From the IMG/VR virus record IMGVR_UViG_3300005529_000068, positions 1-38,156 of that record: 38,156 bases of DNA, one strand, 5' to 3'. A program made the position numbers and the translations under genes. The notes under the pieces are model-generated. The model saw nothing but the letters and a program-made list of their open reading frames with translations, was not told where the DNA came from and searched no databases. Source of the DNA: a virus. Shown here in pieces: positions 4,681 to 15,892 of the stretch; position 1 is the first letter of the stretch, and the number at the start of each line of letters is the position of its first letter.

Positions 4681-5288
4681 TTACGCAACCTCCATTTCGC
4701 CGTCTTGTGGGCAATGTGGCGCGCCGACCGCTTCAAGCCATTTGCGGGTGACGCGCACGGTGTAACCGCACTCGCCGCATTCACACTTTAGGAGGCGCGT
4801 CGATTGTTTTTTCCGCCGGGCGTCGTTCAAGGTTCCGGCCGGATACTCGCCGACGGTTTTAATGTGGCGCTTGGCCCACTCGATAAACTCGGGGCCTTCC
4901 TCGGTCGCGGTCATTTGCCCGACGAGGCCGACCGCAATGGCAACTCGTTTAAACGGCGCCTTGTGCCCCGCCTTTGGGCCAGCGACCGAATGCGCCTTTC
5001 GTGAGCGAGGACACCGAGAATTTTCACGCTCATGCGCTTGCCGCCAAGCTCCGGCGAAATAAAAATCTCGTGGTGCTTGTCGCTTGAGCCTTCGGCGTAC
5101 CAGCATTGTCCGATAGCGCGACCGCGACCATGCGAGCCGCGCGGCCAACCGATGGAAACACGCACGTTAGCCGGCACGCCAAAACCTTTGTAGGCGAAGC
5201 GCGAGCGGAGAGCGGACACGCCGGCCTCAAGCCAGCGTTGCCGTGCCATGCTTGAGCTTATCGTGGCGTCAATCGTGAGAGCGTTCAT
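4681..5288 (-). pseudogene. SprT-like zinc metalloprotease, frameshifted at HExxH
   Basis: First gene of the left operon, from ATG 5288 with GGGG upstream. Frame 1 (from 5288) ends in ILGVLAHE and then turns to arginine-rich nonsense to 4911. Frame 2 (ending 4681) continues as KAH-S-V-AGPKAGHKAPF, a linker, and a zinc-ribbon tail with CECGECGYTV and HC. A one-base step back at GAAAG (about 5000) joins them as HEKAH, a proper HExxH active site followed by the AGHK-PF motif seen in SprT-like phage proteins. The gene is therefore disrupted exactly at its catalytic motif, by mutation, sequencing error or recoding. The site is not a classic A_AAG slippery sequence in the zero frame. Confidence 0.75.
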
Positions 5289-5317
5289 TTGCAACCCCCG
5301 TTGCTTTGAGGATTGCG

Positions 5318-5345
5318 ATAATAACCTACGTTATCGCCTTGTCAA
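5318..5345 (-). promoter_or_regulatory. Early leftward promoter (PL-like)
   Basis: On the minus strand a perfect -35 TTGACA (5345-5340) is followed after 16 bases by TATTAT (5323-5318), about 30 bases before the SprT-like start. One operator covers the spacer and -10 and another abuts the -35, so the repressor would block it directly. Confidence 0.7.
5321..5334. promoter_or_regulatory. Repressor operator O1 (ATAAC-N4-GTTAT)
   Basis: ATAACCTACGTTAT is a perfect 5+5 inverted repeat with a 4-base spacer, lying over the -10 and spacer of the leftward promoter. The same half-sites recur at 5345-5358 and 6181-6202, flanking the immunity genes, as expected for CI/Cro binding sites. Confidence 0.7.
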
Positions 5346-5358
5346 TAACCTTTGTTAT
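5345..5358. promoter_or_regulatory. Repressor operator O2 (ATAAC-N4-GTTAT)
   Basis: ATAACCTTTGTTAT repeats the O1 half-sites with centres 24 bases apart and abuts the -35 of the leftward promoter. A further single half-site (ATAACC) follows at 5363. The spacing would allow cooperative binding on nearly the same DNA face. Confidence 0.7.
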
Positions 5359-5428
5359 GTGAATAACCGGAAACCGATCGACGTAAAAAGCTCATGGATT
5401 GCAACAACTTAGGGTAGAGGTTAGCCGC

Positions 5429-6094
5429 CTAGCGCCGGGAATACTTGCCGACGACGCGATGGCACTTTTGCCACTCCGAGCGGGACAGGGTGAATTTTTT
5501 AGGCGGATTCCATTGCTCGACGTGCCAATGGCTCTCGCTGGCGCGGTTGAAAATCTTAATCGTTGCCTTGACCGTTGCGCCCGCGTCCTCGCTGTAGAAA
5601 ACGCAAGCCTCGCCGGCAATCGGCGGCAAATGCGGGTGAACAAGCGCGGTGTCGCCCGGCCGGAACTCGGGCAGCATCGAATCACCCGTTACGATGATTC
5701 CGTAGCCGTCTTTTACGTTCTGCAAGGGCGCCGGCCTTCGGACATAATCTATCGGCTCCGATGAGAGGATGATGGCGCCGCCCCCGGCTTCGGTGGAACT
5801 AAATACCGCCAAATCGGCGTCGCCGAGTAAAGTAGCAAAAGCGGACCTTTGCACAGTTCTCCCGGTGGTTGTGGTTCCTCGGTTAACGGCGCGTTGCTGC
5901 AACCCTTCAATTTCGGCTAAATCGCAACCGAGCGCGCGGGCGATATCGGGCAGGAAACGGCTTTTCACCGTCTGCCCGCCTTCGATTTTTTTGATTGCCG
6001 GCTGTGAGACGCCGGACGCCTTTGCGAGTTGGGCTTGCGACCAGCCTCGCGCCACGCGAAGCGCCTTTACGCGCTCGCCGACACTCTCTTTCAT
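5429..6094 (-). CDS. CI-like phage repressor, HTH plus S24 peptidase
   Basis: 221 aa from ATG 6094 (AGGGG upstream). Residues about 5-60 form an HTH_3 domain (WSQAQLAKASGVSQPAIKKIE is the recognition region). A linker with an Ala-Gly pair (A103-G104) fits a LexA/CI autocleavage site. The C-terminal S24 domain has GDSM with the nucleophile Ser139 and a candidate general-base Lys in TVKATIK (176 or 180). It should hold the lysogenic state and be inactivated by RecA-ssDNA after DNA damage. It is divergent from the Cro-like gene, with operators on both sides. Confidence 0.92.
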   Translation of the reverse strand: MKESVGERVKALRVARGWSQAQLAKASGVSQPAIKKIEGGQTVKSRFLPDIARALGCDLAEIEGLQQRAVNRGTTTTGRTVQRSAFATLLGDADLAVFSSTEAGGGAIILSSEPIDYVRRPAPLQNVKDGYGIIVTGDSMLPEFRPGDTALVHPHLPPIAGEACVFYSEDAGATVKATIKIFNRASESHWHVEQWNPPKKFTLSRSEWQKCHRVVGKYSRR

Positions 6095-11410: not shown

Positions 11411-11992
11411 ATGCCAACGCTCAAAAACTCGAAACAAGAGGCTTATTGCCAAGCCTACGTTAAAGGCGAACACGCCGGCAACGCTACCGCCTGTTACGCG
11501 GAAATTTACGGGAAAGACCCGAGTGCGACCGGCACGAGAGCAAGCGCGTCGAAGCTGAATCGAAAAGACTACATTTGCAAACGTGTAGCCGAATTGCAGC
11601 TACAAGAGGCAAACGTAGAGCAACAGGCGTTTGCAAAGGCCGTCGATACGCTCGCGCTCGACAAGCAATGGATACTTGAGCGGCTAATGGCAATCGTCGA
11701 GCGGTGTATGCAAGCCGAGCCGGTTCTTGACCCGGAAGGCAAGCCGACCGGCGAGTTTCGTTTCGACGGGAAAAGCGCAAACCGCGCTCTCGAATTGCTC
11801 GGCAAACACTTAGGCCTCTTTGTCGAGCGCCGTCTTGTGACTGTGGAACACGCCGACAAGAGCGACGATGAACTCCGCCGTACCGCCTCCGCAATCGTCG
11901 ACCAACTCGCAAGGCTCGGAGTCGATATCCCGTCTATTGCGGGAATTGGCCTCGGTGACGAGCGAGCTACAACGCCGCCACGACCGAACTAG
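11411..11992 (+). CDS. terS: Terminase small subunit
   Basis: 193 aa from ATG 11411. The N-terminus (LKNSKQEAYCQAYVKGEHAGNATACYAEIY, ASKLNRKDYICKRVAELQ) is a helix-turn-helix of the Terminase_2 type that recognises phage DNA. A coiled oligomerisation segment (about 60-100) and a C-terminal tail follow. It recruits the large subunit to the pac/cos site. It overlaps the ATPase ORF by 38 bases. Confidence 0.88.
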   Translation: MPTLKNSKQEAYCQAYVKGEHAGNATACYAEIYGKDPSATGTRASASKLNRKDYICKRVAELQLQEANVEQQAFAKAVDTLALDKQWILERLMAIVERCMQAEPVLDPEGKPTGEFRFDGKSANRALELLGKHLGLFVERRLVTVEHADKSDDELRRTASAIVDQLARLGVDIPSIAGIGLGDERATTPPRPN

Positions 11993-12602
11993 CTTTTTCC
12001 GCTATCGCCCGTATGCAAAGCAAGCCGCGTTTCACGCACAGGGCGCCGTGCACGACGAGCGGCTTTTTAAGGCGGCAAACCAAGTCGGCAAAACTTACGG
12101 CGGCGGTTTTGAGACGGCCGCGCATCTGACCGGGCTCTATCCCGAATGGTGGTCGGGCCGGCGATGGAATAGGCCGGTAAGAGCGTGGGCGGCGTCGGAT
12201 GGTTACGAGGACACGCGCGACGGCATTCAGCGCATCTTGCTCGGCGAGCCGCGCGTTCGCGAAAAGTGGGGAACCGGAATTATCCCCGGCGCGGAAATTT
12301 ACGATTGGTCGCTCCGTCACGGCGTACCCGATGCAATCTCGAGCCTTGTCGTTCGCCACTACACAAACGGAATTTACGACGGGCTCTCAACGCTCGGGCT
12401 CAAGAGCTACGTTCAAGGCCGGCAAGCCTTCCAAGTCGAAACGCTCGACTTTGTTTGGTTTGACGAGGAACCGTCGAGCGATATCTACGGCGAGGGCATT
12501 ACGCGCACCAACGCGACCGGCGGCATCGTGTTTCTGACATTCACTCCGCTTAAGGGCATGTCCGAAGTCGTTTTGAGCTTCAAGGACTGTCCCGGTTTCT
12601 GA
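11955..12602 (+). CDS. terL: Terminase large subunit, ATPase half (split TerL)
   Basis: 215 aa from GTG 11955 (TTG 11946 is an alternative). It has the packaging ATPase motifs: a variant Walker A AANQVGKT (40-47), Walker B FVWFDEE (166-172) and coupling motif III LTFTPLKGM (194-202). The frame ends at TGA 12602, just after SEVVLSFKDCPGF. In intact relatives a short linker and the RNase H-like nuclease follow here; in this window they begin only at 15149. The break lies at the domain boundary and every ATPase motif is intact, so this half could still be an active motor. Confidence 0.9.
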   Translation: MTSELQRRHDRTSFFRYRPYAKQAAFHAQGAVHDERLFKAANQVGKTYGGGFETAAHLTGLYPEWWSGRRWNRPVRAWAASDGYEDTRDGIQRILLGEPRVREKWGTGIIPGAEIYDWSLRHGVPDAISSLVVRHYTNGIYDGLSTLGLKSYVQGRQAFQVETLDFVWFDEEPSSDIYGEGITRTNATGGIVFLTFTPLKGMSEVVLSFKDCPGF

Positions 12603-12615
12603 AAGAGAGGGAACA

Positions 12616-13056
12616 ATGTTTAAACGGCTCTTGCTCGTCGGCGTTCTTGCGCTCGCGGGGATTGTCGGCGCTTCCGCGCAGCAATTCCCGGTGCCAACGT
12701 CGCGGCCAATTTCGATCATTAACAATTCGTCTGGCAACGTTGCCGCTTCCGCGGCGACCGCGACGCTTGCGGCGGCGGTCGACCTCACGAATTACATTTG
12801 CGGGTTTGCGATCACTGGCGCCGGCGCAACGGCCGCGTCGATTATCAGCGTCACGGTGTCAAACCTTGCCGGCGGCGCTATGTCTTTTGCGCTTGTCATT
12901 CCGGCCGGCGCGACGGTTTCTATCAATCCGCTAATCGTGAATTTTCCTGTTTGTCTCCCCGCGAATGCGGCGAACACAGCGATAGCCGTCTCGGCGCCGA
13001 GCTTTGGCGCCGGCAATACCAACGCGCAAGCGACGGCATGGGGTTTTCGGTTTTAG
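12616..13056 (+). CDS. Secreted beta-rich protein
   Basis: 146 aa from ATG 12616, GAGGGA upstream. Residues 1-21 are a clear Sec signal peptide (MFKRLLLVGVLALAGIVGASA, cleavage after ASA). The mature part is Ala/Gly/Thr/Val-rich with NYICGFAIT, VSVTVSNLAGG and CLPANAANTAIAVSAP, and two cysteines that could form a disulphide; it ends with an aromatic WGFRF. Similar proteins occur in alphaproteobacterial phages without known function. A signal peptide argues for a periplasmic or surface role, such as superinfection exclusion. It is the first gene in the insert that separates the terminase halves. Confidence 0.65.
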   Translation: MFKRLLLVGVLALAGIVGASAQQFPVPTSRPISIINNSSGNVAASAATATLAAAVDLTNYICGFAITGAGATAASIISVTVSNLAGGAMSFALVIPAGATVSINPLIVNFPVCLPANAANTAIAVSAPSFGAGNTNAQATAWGFRF

Positions 13057-13142
13057 CGGCTTGATGAGAGCGGGCGACTCCTCGGTCGGGTAAGCGGCTC
13101 CCGGTTCGGCCGATCTTTGAAAGGTAGCTTGCGGGCTCGCTC

Positions 13143-13158
13143 CGGCGCGAATGCGCCG
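13143..13158 (+). repeat. Short GC hairpin in intergenic region
   Basis: CGGCGC pairs with GCGCCG around GAAT in the 183-base gap 13057-13239. There is no T-run. The rest of this gap shows no ORF or recognisable RNA gene. Confidence 0.4.
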
Positions 13159-13239
13159 CATCTGTGCCGTCCAAAGCTATCGACGGGGCCATAAACAAAA
13201 ATGCCGGCAATGACCGGCCAACAAGAAAGGCGAAAAAAA

Positions 13240-13482
13240 ATGGTACGCGCAAAATTCTTTGTGACCTCTATCCAGCACTTTCACGGAACCGGGACCGACC
13301 CTTGCGCCGAGGTTAAACTTGCTCCGGTGTTCGGGAGCTACGGCAACGGTGAGGAAAACAAGTCGTTTTCCAAATACACGCCGCAAGGCACGATTGCGCT
13401 GACGATCACGAACCCGGACGCTATCGACAAATTTTCTCTCGGTGAGGCGTATTACGTCGATTTCACTCCGGCGCCGAAATAG
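13240..13482 (+). CDS. Small conserved phage protein (YYVDFTP end)
   Basis: 80 aa from ATG 13240, with AAAGG upstream; the frame extension to 13201 lacks a ribosome-binding site. The pattern MVRAKFFVTSIQHF..., EVKLAPVFG, ENKSFSKYTPQGTIALTITNPDAIDKF, GEAYYVDFTPA is a small beta-barrel-like protein found near the head genes of many phages. The function is not established. It lies in the insert between the terminase halves, 10 bases before the tRNA-like gene. Confidence 0.65.
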   Translation: MVRAKFFVTSIQHFHGTGTDPCAEVKLAPVFGSYGNGEENKSFSKYTPQGTIALTITNPDAIDKFSLGEAYYVDFTPAPK

Positions 13483-13492
13483 GCGTCGGCAG

Positions 13493-13573
13493 GGTGGCCG
13501 TAGCTCAAGGGTAGAGCGCGTGCAGCCGAGCAATCGGCCCGCGAGGCTGGCGGTTCAAATCCGCTCGGCCACC
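13493..13573 (+). tRNA. tRNA-His-like RNA lacking an anticodon
   Basis: Canonical parts are all present: a perfect 7-bp acceptor (13494-13500 with 13566-13572) plus a G-1:C73 pair (13493, 13573); U8 A9; a 4-bp D stem (GCTC/GAGC) with loop AAGGGTA; a 5-base variable loop AGGCT; and a T arm with TTCAAAT. The anticodon arm starts as a 4-bp stem (13519-13522 with 13540-13543) but, instead of a 7-base loop, carries a further 5-bp helix GCCGA/TCGGC capped by a GCAA tetraloop. There is no readable anticodon and CCA is not encoded. The G-1:C73 pair and GGTGGC start resemble bacterial tRNA-His. It cannot decode in the normal way. Confidence 0.7.
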
Positions 13574-13592
13574 CGCAAGTTTAGGGTGTTCA

Positions 13593-13970
13593 ATGACCGA
13601 AAATCCGTCAACGGAATCGTTCCGCATTCGGAATGAACGCAAGGCCGCGCAATATGCGGCACAAATTCTCGGTATGGCAGCAATCCGCGGCGTGACGCCG
13701 GCCGATTTGTTTCTTTCGCTCGCGGCGGTTGCGGGAAACAAAAACCCGTACTTTGCGCGCAAGCTCCTAGAGGCGCTTGAGGCGACCGTGCGGGCCCGTC
13801 CCGTTCAAGCGGTCAAGGTTGAGCCGGCGACGGAGACGGGCGAGGCGTTGCTTGCAAATGCCGGCGAGGTTTTTGCAGCACAGCCGGTAAGCGACGAATG
13901 CGGTTGCCCAAGTTGCACTAGCGATAACGCGGCGTTGCCGGCGGTCGATTTTGTATCGGAGCGCACATGA
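13593..13970 (+). CDS. Hypothetical protein with CxC-type motif
   Basis: 125 aa from ATG 13593. The first about 70 residues are helical (FRIRNERKAAQYAAQILGMAAIRG, LFLSLAAVAGNKNPYFARKLLEALEATV). The C-terminal half is disordered and acidic with a Cys cluster (DECGCPSCTSD) that might bind a metal. No family recognised. It ends in an ATGA overlap with the next gene. Confidence 0.5.
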   Translation: MTENPSTESFRIRNERKAAQYAAQILGMAAIRGVTPADLFLSLAAVAGNKNPYFARKLLEALEATVRARPVQAVKVEPATETGEALLANAGEVFAAQPVSDECGCPSCTSDNAALPAVDFVSERT

Positions 13971-14185
13971 CCTCGGTCGAGCTTACAGACCTTGCAAACC
14001 GCGCTCGCGCGGAATCGGTTTCGCAAACGGGGCCTGTCACACCGAAAGACACCGCGCGCATTTGGAAATTGCTCGCCGTCGTTTCGGCTCACGCGGCCAT
14101 GCTTGCCGCTCGCGTCGAGGCACTTGAGGCGCGGCCGAAAGCCGGGCGACCGCCGGGCTCGATTAACAAGGCGCGGGCAGCATAA
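13967..14185 (+). CDS. Small coiled-coil protein with basic tail
   Basis: 72 aa from ATG 13967 (ATGA overlap). A helical, heptad-like core (ARIWKLLAVVSAHAAMLAARVEALEA) is followed by a basic AT-hook-like tail (KAGRPPGSINKARAA). This combination suggests a small oligomeric DNA-binding or virion-associated protein. Function unknown. It shares its stop region with the next gene (TAATG). Confidence 0.5.
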   Translation: MTSVELTDLANRARAESVSQTGPVTPKDTARIWKLLAVVSAHAAMLAARVEALEARPKAGRPPGSINKARAA

Positions 14186-14783
14186 TGGCCGACTTTGCCG
14201 ACCTCTCGGGCAAGCCGGCGTTCACATGGCGCGACACTTGGCCGGTTCGGCTCGGCATGACGGCGCTCTCGGCGCTGGCGCTTCCGGGCGACGTTTATGC
14301 AGGGCGCGTCGCGACCGATTACATTTCTCAATCCTCTCCGCGTCGTGGCATAAGTGATTGGGTATGGTCGACCGCGCAACCGATCTTGCCTCGATCGTGG
14401 TCGGCGCTCCGGGCGGCGCCGGCGGGCTCGATTCCGTTATTGAGGATTTTTCGCGTCGCGCTGCGGAAATGAAGCGCGAGGGTCATTGGAATGCTGGCGG
14501 TATTCAATCAATCGTTGACGCGCTCAAGGCTGTGAAATCAGGCAACGCGACATTAGAGCGGCCCGGTCGCATGTATGAGGTAAACATTCTCGCCGACCCC
14601 GAGCGTTTCTTAGATTGGTCAAAGCCAATTTCCGAACAAAGCGCGCCGGTTCGCGAGGCTTACGAAAGAATAACCGGCGCTCGCGACCCGAAGCTCGCCG
14701 AAATTCGGACGCGCGAAATTGACGAGATAATGAATGCGCTCGCAAGCGACCGCGACCCGGTTACGAAATCAAATGCGGAATGA
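14185..14783 (+). pseudogene. Phage accessory gene interrupted by a 59-bp insert
   Basis: The frame from ATG 14185 reads TWPVRLGMTALSALALPGDVYAGRV, then enters the 48-bp repeat (YISQSSPRRGISDWVW) and loses its frame. A second frame (first ATG 14364, ends 14783) reads VDRATDLASIVVGAPGGAGG, later YEVNILADPERFLDWSKPISEQS. Removing 14311-14369 rejoins them as LPGDVYAGRV-DRATDLAS, the order expected in the large-polyvalent/MuF-associated proteins I recognise from phages. The insert is flanked by a GTCG direct repeat (14308-14311, 14367-14370) and shifts the frame by two bases. The second piece may still be translated from 14364. Confidence 0.7.
14321..14368. repeat. 48-bp inverted repeat, copy A
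   Basis: This is the exact reverse complement of 14932-14979. It lies within the insert that disrupts the accessory gene. The two copies enclose 563 bases and could support inversion or a long RNA duplex. Confidence 0.92.
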
Positions 14784-14892
14784 GCGGGATTGGTTCAAGC
14801 TCGCCAAAGACCGCGACGCCGCATGGGCGGAGTGGAAAAAATCGCAATCGGGCCAAACTGCCTATCAGGGAATCTCTTTTTCTGGATGCTGA
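14773..14892 (+). CDS. 39-aa hypothetical protein
   Basis: From ATG 14773, overlapping the upstream frame by 11 bases. The sequence MRNERDWFKLAKDRDAAWAEWKK is a charged helix with regularly spaced tryptophans, more protein-like than random. It overlaps the next small gene in another frame, so one of the two may be spurious. Confidence 0.4.
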   Translation: MRNERDWFKLAKDRDAAWAEWKKSQSGQTAYQGISFSGC

Positions 14893-14972
14893 TCGCGGCT
14901 TGCGTCATTGCGACTGTTTACGACCTGACCAACCATACCCAATCACTTATGCCACGACGCGGAGAGGATTGA
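14823..14972 (+). CDS. 49-aa single-span membrane protein
   Basis: From ATG 14823. Residues about 17-36 (NLFFWMLIAACVIATVYDL) form one membrane segment. The last dozen residues (HTQSLMPRRGED) are encoded by copy B of the 48-bp repeat, and the stop sits just before the next gene's ribosome-binding site. Function unknown. Confidence 0.45.
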   Translation: MGGVEKIAIGPNCLSGNLFFWMLIAACVIATVYDLTNHTQSLMPRRGED

Positions 14973-14979
14973 GAAATGT
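14932..14979. repeat. 48-bp inverted repeat, copy B, carries a ribosome-binding site and ATG
   Basis: Exact reverse complement of 14321-14368. This copy includes the end of the small membrane gene, a GGAGAGG Shine-Dalgarno (14961-14967) and the ATG (14976) of the next ORF. If both copies are in one transcript they could pair and hide that start. Confidence 0.92.
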
Positions 14980-15152
14980 CTAAATTGGCTGACCGGATAG
15001 AGAATGAACAGCACGCGGGAGCGTTCATCCCGACAGAACGAACTCCACCGCATATTGCGGCTCTTGGACCGCAGGAGTGGTGGTTAATCAGGGTGGACAA
15101 AAACGAACGCGACGAAATCATTCGGGCGCTTCGCGCACGGGGTGGGGAATGA
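14976..15152 (+). CDS. 58-aa protein coupled to the terminase nuclease half
   Basis: From ATG 14976 with a strong GGAGAGG inside the repeat. MSKLADRIENEQHAGAFIPTERTPPHIAALGPQEWWLIRVDKNERDEIIRALRARGGE is compact and charged, without a known family. Its stop overlaps the ATG of the terminase nuclease ORF (ATGA at 15149-15152), so translation of the terminase C-half probably depends on this cistron. Confidence 0.55.
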   Translation: MSKLADRIENEQHAGAFIPTERTPPHIAALGPQEWWLIRVDKNERDEIIRALRARGGE

Positions 15153-15892
15153 GCAAGGGCGTCGTTACCATGACGATTGACGACGCCGAGCATTTGTCGC
15201 CAGAGCAACGTCAAATAATTATCGAGCGAACTCCGAAACACGAGCGCGGACCTCGCTTGTACGGAGAGCCCGCCGCCGGCTCCGGCCTCGTGTTTCCGGT
15301 CGACGACGAGGCTATTGCTTGCGACCCGTTCAAGATACCGGCGCACTACCGGCGAATTAACGGGCTCGACTTCGGTTGGGACCATCCTTTCGGCGCCTCG
15401 TCGCTCGCGCACGATTCGGAAGCGGACGTTATTTATGTGACGGCTTGCTATCGCGAGTCACAGGCGACGCCGATCATTCACGCGGCAGCGGTCAAACCTT
15501 GGGGCGAGTGGATTCCGTGCGCGTGGCCGCATGACGGCTTGCAGCACGACAAAGGCTCCGGCGATCAACTCGCCGAGCTTTACCGCAAGCAGGGTTTAAA
15601 CATGCTCCCCGAACACGCCACGCACGAGGAAGGCGGATTCGGGACCGAGGCCGGCGTAATTGAAATGCTAACCCGGATGCAAACCGGGCGCTGGAAGGTC
15701 TTTCGCAATCTCGGCGAGTGGTTTTCCGAAAAGCGGCTCTATCACCGCGAAAAAGGAATCATCGTCAAAGAACGCGACGACATTCTTTCCTCGTCGCGCG
15801 TCGGCTTAATGATGCTCCGCTTTGCAGAACACGAGCCGAAAGCAAAGCCGCGCTCGCGGACAAACGCGCCGGAAGGCGCATGGATGGGTTAA
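15149..15892 (+). CDS. terL: Terminase large subunit, nuclease half (split TerL)
   Basis: 247 aa from ATG 15149 (GGGG-T-GGGGA upstream, ATGA overlap). It begins SKGVVTMTIDDAEHLSPEQRQIII, the segment that follows ATPase motif III in intact large terminases, and contains an RNase H-like nuclease: GLDFGWDHP (Asp74), WPHDG (Asp129) and ERDDILSSSR (Asp210/211). It would cut concatemers into headfuls. All acidic residues are present, so it looks functional as a separate chain. It is followed by the portal gene after 3 bases. Confidence 0.88.
   Translation: MSKGVVTMTIDDAEHLSPEQRQIIIERTPKHERGPRLYGEPAAGSGLVFPVDDEAIACDPFKIPAHYRRINGLDFGWDHPFGASSLAHDSEADVIYVTACYRESQATPIIHAAAVKPWGEWIPCAWPHDGLQHDKGSGDQLAELYRKQGLNMLPEHATHEEGGFGTEAGVIEMLTRMQTGRWKVFRNLGEWFSEKRLYHREKGIIVKERDDILSSSRVGLMMLRFAEHEPKAKPRSRTNAPEGAWMG

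Follow-up and report, generated by a model that had tools for sequence, protein, structure and literature searches.

A P22-family large terminase encoded in two separate reading frames, with genes in the junction, in a metagenomic virus and some of its relatives

Large terminases (TerL) of the P22 gp2 type are encoded by a single gene. In the TerL of D6E, the ATPase domain is composed of an ASCE and a lid subdomain, and the lid leads through a 12-residue linker (residues 230 to 241) into the nuclease (PMC5727402). ATPase and nuclease on separate, consecutive genes were described for most members of the Arthrobacter phage cluster AY (PMC11920828), the only report of split or two-gene terminases that we found in the open-access literature. 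Given this precedent, split TerL is treated here as a kind already known. The TerL gene of cyanophage Mic1 is also interrupted, but there protein splicing rejoins the product (PMC7156551).

The terminase locus investigated here lies in a virus record from IMG/VR, a 38-kb metagenome contig (IMGVR_UViG_3300005529_000068; 38,156 nucleotides, analysed over its whole length and called the window below), and the hosts of this virus are soil-type bacteria. Similarly to cluster AY (BillyTP, PP978841), the window carries ATPase and nuclease on separate genes. However, the two BillyTP genes are consecutive and overlap by 17 nt, whereas 2.5 kb of genes lie between those of the window, and no similarity was detectable between the BillyTP TerL sequence and the TerL family of the window. 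By eye, chain 2 of BillyTP starts about 14 residues before the first nuclease aspartate, compared to 73 residues in the window. The BillyTP cut would thus fall after the lid, at the start of the nuclease, and leave the lid with the ATPase. Family and domains are shared with P22 gp2, to which the C-terminal chain of the window is about 47% identical, but P22-type TerL is one gene and the window has two. The nearest TerL proteins, those of Rhizobium phages RHph_N2 and RHph_N3_2, are likewise encoded by a single intact ORF of about 1.4 kb, and in contrast to Mic1 the window lacks an intein. To our knowledge, the site of the break, the TerL family affected, the wide spread of the split and the gene-filled junction are new.

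The genes of the locus, mostly overlapping or tightly spaced on one strand, are in the order small terminase subunit (TerS), TerL chain 1, about eight small ORFs, TerL chain 2 and a long ORF (802 aa) whose position suggests the portal; those from TerS to chain 2 are on the plus strand. TerS (11411-11992) matched phrog_51 (E=8e-19) and, under the Pfam cut-off, Terminase_2 (E=0.0016). Chain 1 (11868-12602, 244 aa) contains the ATPase core. It matched Terminase_6N above the Pfam cut-off (E=1.2e-14), covering positions 2-146 of the 215-position profile, and its best PHROGs family (phrog_31467, E=5.5e-45) is labelled "unknown function". Chain 2 (15149-15892, 247 aa) matched Terminase_6C (E=2.6e-20) and the missing end of the Terminase_6N profile (positions 163-214); it comprises a putative lid segment (residues ~1-41) and an RNase H-like nuclease. 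The Walker A (NQVGKT), Walker B (VWFDEEP) and motif III (TFTP) sequences of chain 1 did not vary in 22 split sequences (the window and 21 relatives), and the nuclease acids D74, D129, D210 and D211 were invariant among the aligned split sequences. The TerL of an intact relative matched the window at two places only, which are the two halves (E=1e-61 and 3e-100). An intact terL elsewhere in the record had been named by the initial annotation as evidence that would count against a split, and no second TerL copy was found in the 38 kb. ATPase and nuclease are thus located on separate ORFs 2546 nt apart and not on the one polypeptide that characterizes canonical P22-type TerL, and we filed the window's terminase as a split variant of that type.

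The Pfam matches agree with the initial annotation in assigning ATPase and nuclease to separate ORFs, at 11955-12602 and 15149-15892, respectively, but the start of the former probably has to be moved. An upstream ATG at 11868 extends chain 1 over TerS and is judged likelier than GTG 11955 because the added residues resemble those of the related locus L160, a similarity that the overlapping TerS gene could also preserve. At the other end of the gap, the start codon of chain 2 overlaps the stop codon of the ORF at 14976-15152 by 4 nt (ATGA), in agreement with the initial annotation, which had described chain 2 as translationally coupled to a small ORF.

We then investigated where the break falls in the protein fold. 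AlphaFold2 was run on L013, an intact relative, with an alignment of 36 rows (mean pLDDT 88). The model resembled known terminase structures, its ATPase domain (residues 37-279) aligning with P74-26 TerL (4ZNL; Z 21.3, rmsd 2.8, 209 aligned residues) and its nuclease (276-466) with that of P22 (4DKW; Z 28.6, rmsd 2.3, 188 aligned residues). The break falls at residues ~232-238 of this model, separating a helix (225-232) that follows ATPase motif III from a strand (238-243) that leads into the lid. This is about 40 residues ahead of the nuclease and of the ATPase/nuclease boundary, and chain 2 would therefore consist of lid plus nuclease. The model of chain 2 itself (pLDDT 81) aligned with 4DKW only from residue 42 onward (Z 28.5, rmsd 1.9, 191 residues). 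The initial description of a break at the natural domain boundary is thus incorrect, since the C-terminal chain holds some 40 residues that belong to the ATPase fold. By its position, this N-terminal piece of chain 2 is predicted to be the ATPase lid, and its exact equivalence to the D6E lid is likewise suggested by position in the models. The placement of the lid on chain 2 is consistent with T4 gp17, whose subdomain II is taken up again near residue 314.

The DNA between the two chains contains a series of small genes. The first ORF (12616-13056, plus strand, 146 aa) has a possible signal peptide by eye and did not match Pfam, PADLOC or NCBIfam; neither PADLOC nor NCBIfam gave a match to defence or other named cargo anywhere in the insert. 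The second (13201-13482, plus strand, 93 aa) matched the C-terminal part of phrog_6978, a family of unknown function (E=9.8e-15). It is followed by a tRNA-like element (13494-13574, plus strand) that ARAGORN reported as tRNA-???. By eye its acceptor, D and T arms are sound and its anticodon arm is enlarged and malformed; the element folds strongly (z -3.4), with the cloverleaf not being the minimum. It had no Rfam match, and no tRNAs were found in the gaps of the other split loci. Further plus-strand ORFs follow at 13593-13970 (125 aa), 13967-14185 (72 aa, in ATGA overlap with the ORF upstream), 14185-14472 (95 aa), 14358-14783 (141 aa) and 14976-15152 (58 aa). The ORF at 14358-14783 appears to continue the gene at 14185 in another frame and contains a GRMYEVN..DPERFLDW stretch that is widespread among viral contigs.

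The arrangement nearest to that of the window was observed in L160, a locus of Xanthobacteraceae bacterium Astr-EGSB 3 that lies on a bacterial contig of 361 kb. A 1401-nt gap separates the TerL halves of L160; it consists of a run of ORFs, which opens in overlap with the chain 1 stop (AAATGACC) and closes in the chain 2 start (GTGA). Two of these ORFs are homologous to, and colinear with, those at 13593-13970 (34% identity over 64 aa, E=5e-9 in a small comparison; same relative position) and 14185-14472 of the window. The latter corresponds to the 5' part of a gene whose L160 homologue lies at 5210-6004 (68% identity across 28 aa, E=3e-8). No relative of the L160 insert protein was found in viral contigs. 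The window copy of this gene is, as judged from its reading frames, damaged and frame-broken. A perfect 48-nt inverted repeat has its first arm at 14321-14368 (plus strand), where the frame of the ORF at 14185 runs into it and where the gene is unbroken in L160. The second arm (14932-14979, minus strand), 563 nt away, contains the ribosome-binding site and the start of the ORF at 14976. The repeat has the appearance of a templated inverted insertion or of an error in assembly, and a search of viral contigs did not find its sequence elsewhere.

A search for the same split order, as suggested by the initial annotation, showed that it is widespread. The halves were in separate frames with the break at the same position in 46 of 158 viral-contig loci (window included), as well as in 20 of 80 bacterial-genome loci; both sets were picked by similarity to the window, so these proportions are not population frequencies, and the sets overlap (L005 and L161, for example, are one Bradyrhizobium sequence). 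Split genome loci include those of Bradyrhizobium, Methylobacterium, Sphingomonas, Pelagibius, Denitrobaculum and a Xanthobacteraceae bacterium, and the split set is a deep group of mainly alphaproteobacterial phages and prophages. In split relatives, chain 1 ends between a few and about 25 residues past TFTPLxGMSxVV and chain 2 starts near M(S/T)RxVTxMTIDDAEH, where fused relatives read straight through. Among 66 split cases, the commonest junction was a 4-nt stop/start overlap of the form NTGA (31 cases); 8-nt overlaps occurred in 6 and inserts in 21, about one third. Insert sizes ranged from 49 to 5111 nt, and insert content was unrelated between relatives. The gap of L031 holds an ORF for an HNH endonuclease. 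On two MAG contigs the gap carries bacterial-type genes, NnrU in L203 (5139-6000) and FAD oxidoreductase and GST genes in L194 (890-6000); these largest inserts might be cargo or assembly products. Three of five genomes examined (Bradyrhizobium C9, Sphingomonas Root720 and Denitrobaculum) had no intact Terminase_6N protein, and in the other two (G001 and G003) further intact ones, possibly of other prophages, were located on different contigs. None of the best matches in 50,697 phage records was an isolated phage with this exact split, so we infer functional virions from selection.

The split appears to be old. On a maximum-likelihood tree, the split/fused label changed 5 times, compared to 39 times in shuffles, and trees built from the N-terminal or C-terminal half alone required 6 to 8 changes. 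One group comprises 32 split sequences including the window, and 12 more form a second group enclosing 3 fused sequences. The split would thus have one or a few origins on this tree, which is unrooted and has several long branches. Median dN/dS was 0.14 (N half) and 0.105 (C half) in split pairs, compared to 0.11 and 0.07 in fused pairs, indicating, on substitution patterns, that both halves are under purifying selection.

Taken together, we consider it highly probable that the window's TerL arose by natural fission of a P22-family gene and acts as two chains, made by coupled or serial initiation, that would form a heterodimeric motor subunit. This reading is preferred because the break is shared, both halves are selected, and intron, intein, slippery site and second TerL were not found. 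Fission of terL would have stayed functional through the stop/start overlap, at which ribosomes finishing chain 1 would start chain 2. The junction, then outside any reading frame, could later take up genes, with the overlaps at its edges being kept or remade. Both chains would be produced from one polycistronic message and fold together, chain 2 giving lid and nuclease to the ATP-binding core of chain 1. Each motor subunit would then consist of the two chains together and would carry out DNA packaging and cutting as a one-chain TerL does. The two-chain terminase of the initial annotation is therefore the best-supported reading, while the binding of the two chains to each other and their assembly in trans are predicted from sequence. 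A different expression of motor and nuclease, also proposed there, was not borne out, since a single weak promoter-like match was found, no more than in shuffles. A further possibility, which we regard as unlikely, is that the lid and nuclease chain makes the terminase a regulated two-component engine. Chain 2 could then load, exchange or vary in ratio and in this way switch between cutting and pumping, whereas one-chain terminases do so through domain movement.

Other explanations for the interruption were weighed against fission. Decay of TerL in a defective phage could be suspected from the frame-broken insert gene of the window and from the Sinorhizobium-type loci L042, L174 and L200, which resemble recent breaks. 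It is nevertheless very unlikely, given a dN/dS of about 0.1 in both halves, unvaried motifs, well-placed start codons and the deep persistence of the split. Misassembly of the metagenome, placing unrelated DNA between the halves, deserves mention because the window is an IMG/VR contig whose insert contains the perfect inverted repeat of 48 nt, at which local damage or misassembly is possible. The colinear insert of L160, two genes of which are homologous to genes in the window's insert, makes a chimeric assembly unlikely, and many further split loci are in isolate genomes, so that we see little chance of this explanation holding.

Removal of the 2.5 kb as an intron or other splicing element would yield a single joined protein. 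Inteins are known in phage terminases, the TerL of Mic1 having two (PMC7156551), and an HNH endonuclease ORF lies in the gap of L031. Against such an element, insert length varies between zero and 5 kb and insert content is unrelated, a stop/start overlap lacking any insert is the most frequent junction, and the tail by which chain 1 exceeds the shared core, a few to about 25 residues, is too short for an intein half. Moreover, Rfam revealed no intron in the window, as the initial annotation had noted from the sequence, or in 14 split loci, and splicing is extremely improbable. Programmed frameshifting could still yield a full chain in overlap-type relatives, as many pairs have a 4-nt overlap at which a -1 shift would fuse the halves. 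However, an in-frame X XXY YYZ heptamer was absent from the last 60 nt in all 32 overlap-type loci, and a frameshift could not join the halves across the window's insert; we give this explanation almost no credence.

The coupling of ATP hydrolysis, through the lid, to movement and to the nuclease is central to models of the packaging motor. A chain cut just before the lid, with both parts selected, would allow separate purification, mutation and mixing and thus a direct test of these models. In addition, an essential single-copy gene has here become a place where accessory genes can settle. Surveys that rely on full-length TerL as their marker will overlook phages with split TerL or count them wrongly.

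Some further observations concern individual loci. In three Sinorhizobium-type loci, a fused-type terL is interrupted at or near the older fission site, by a frameshift in L042 and L174 and by an in-frame TAG stop in L200. These look like recent breaks of fused genes and may represent incipient fission or decay. A freer exchange of N and C halves once the gene is split was considered and dropped, because discordant half pairs occur among fused genes as well. Recombination of halves was observed between L002/L003 and L004/L005, whose C halves are 84-89% identical but whose N halves are only 60-63% identical. Finally, L003 carries an Rfam skipping-rope RNA (2203-2317) upstream of its split terL.
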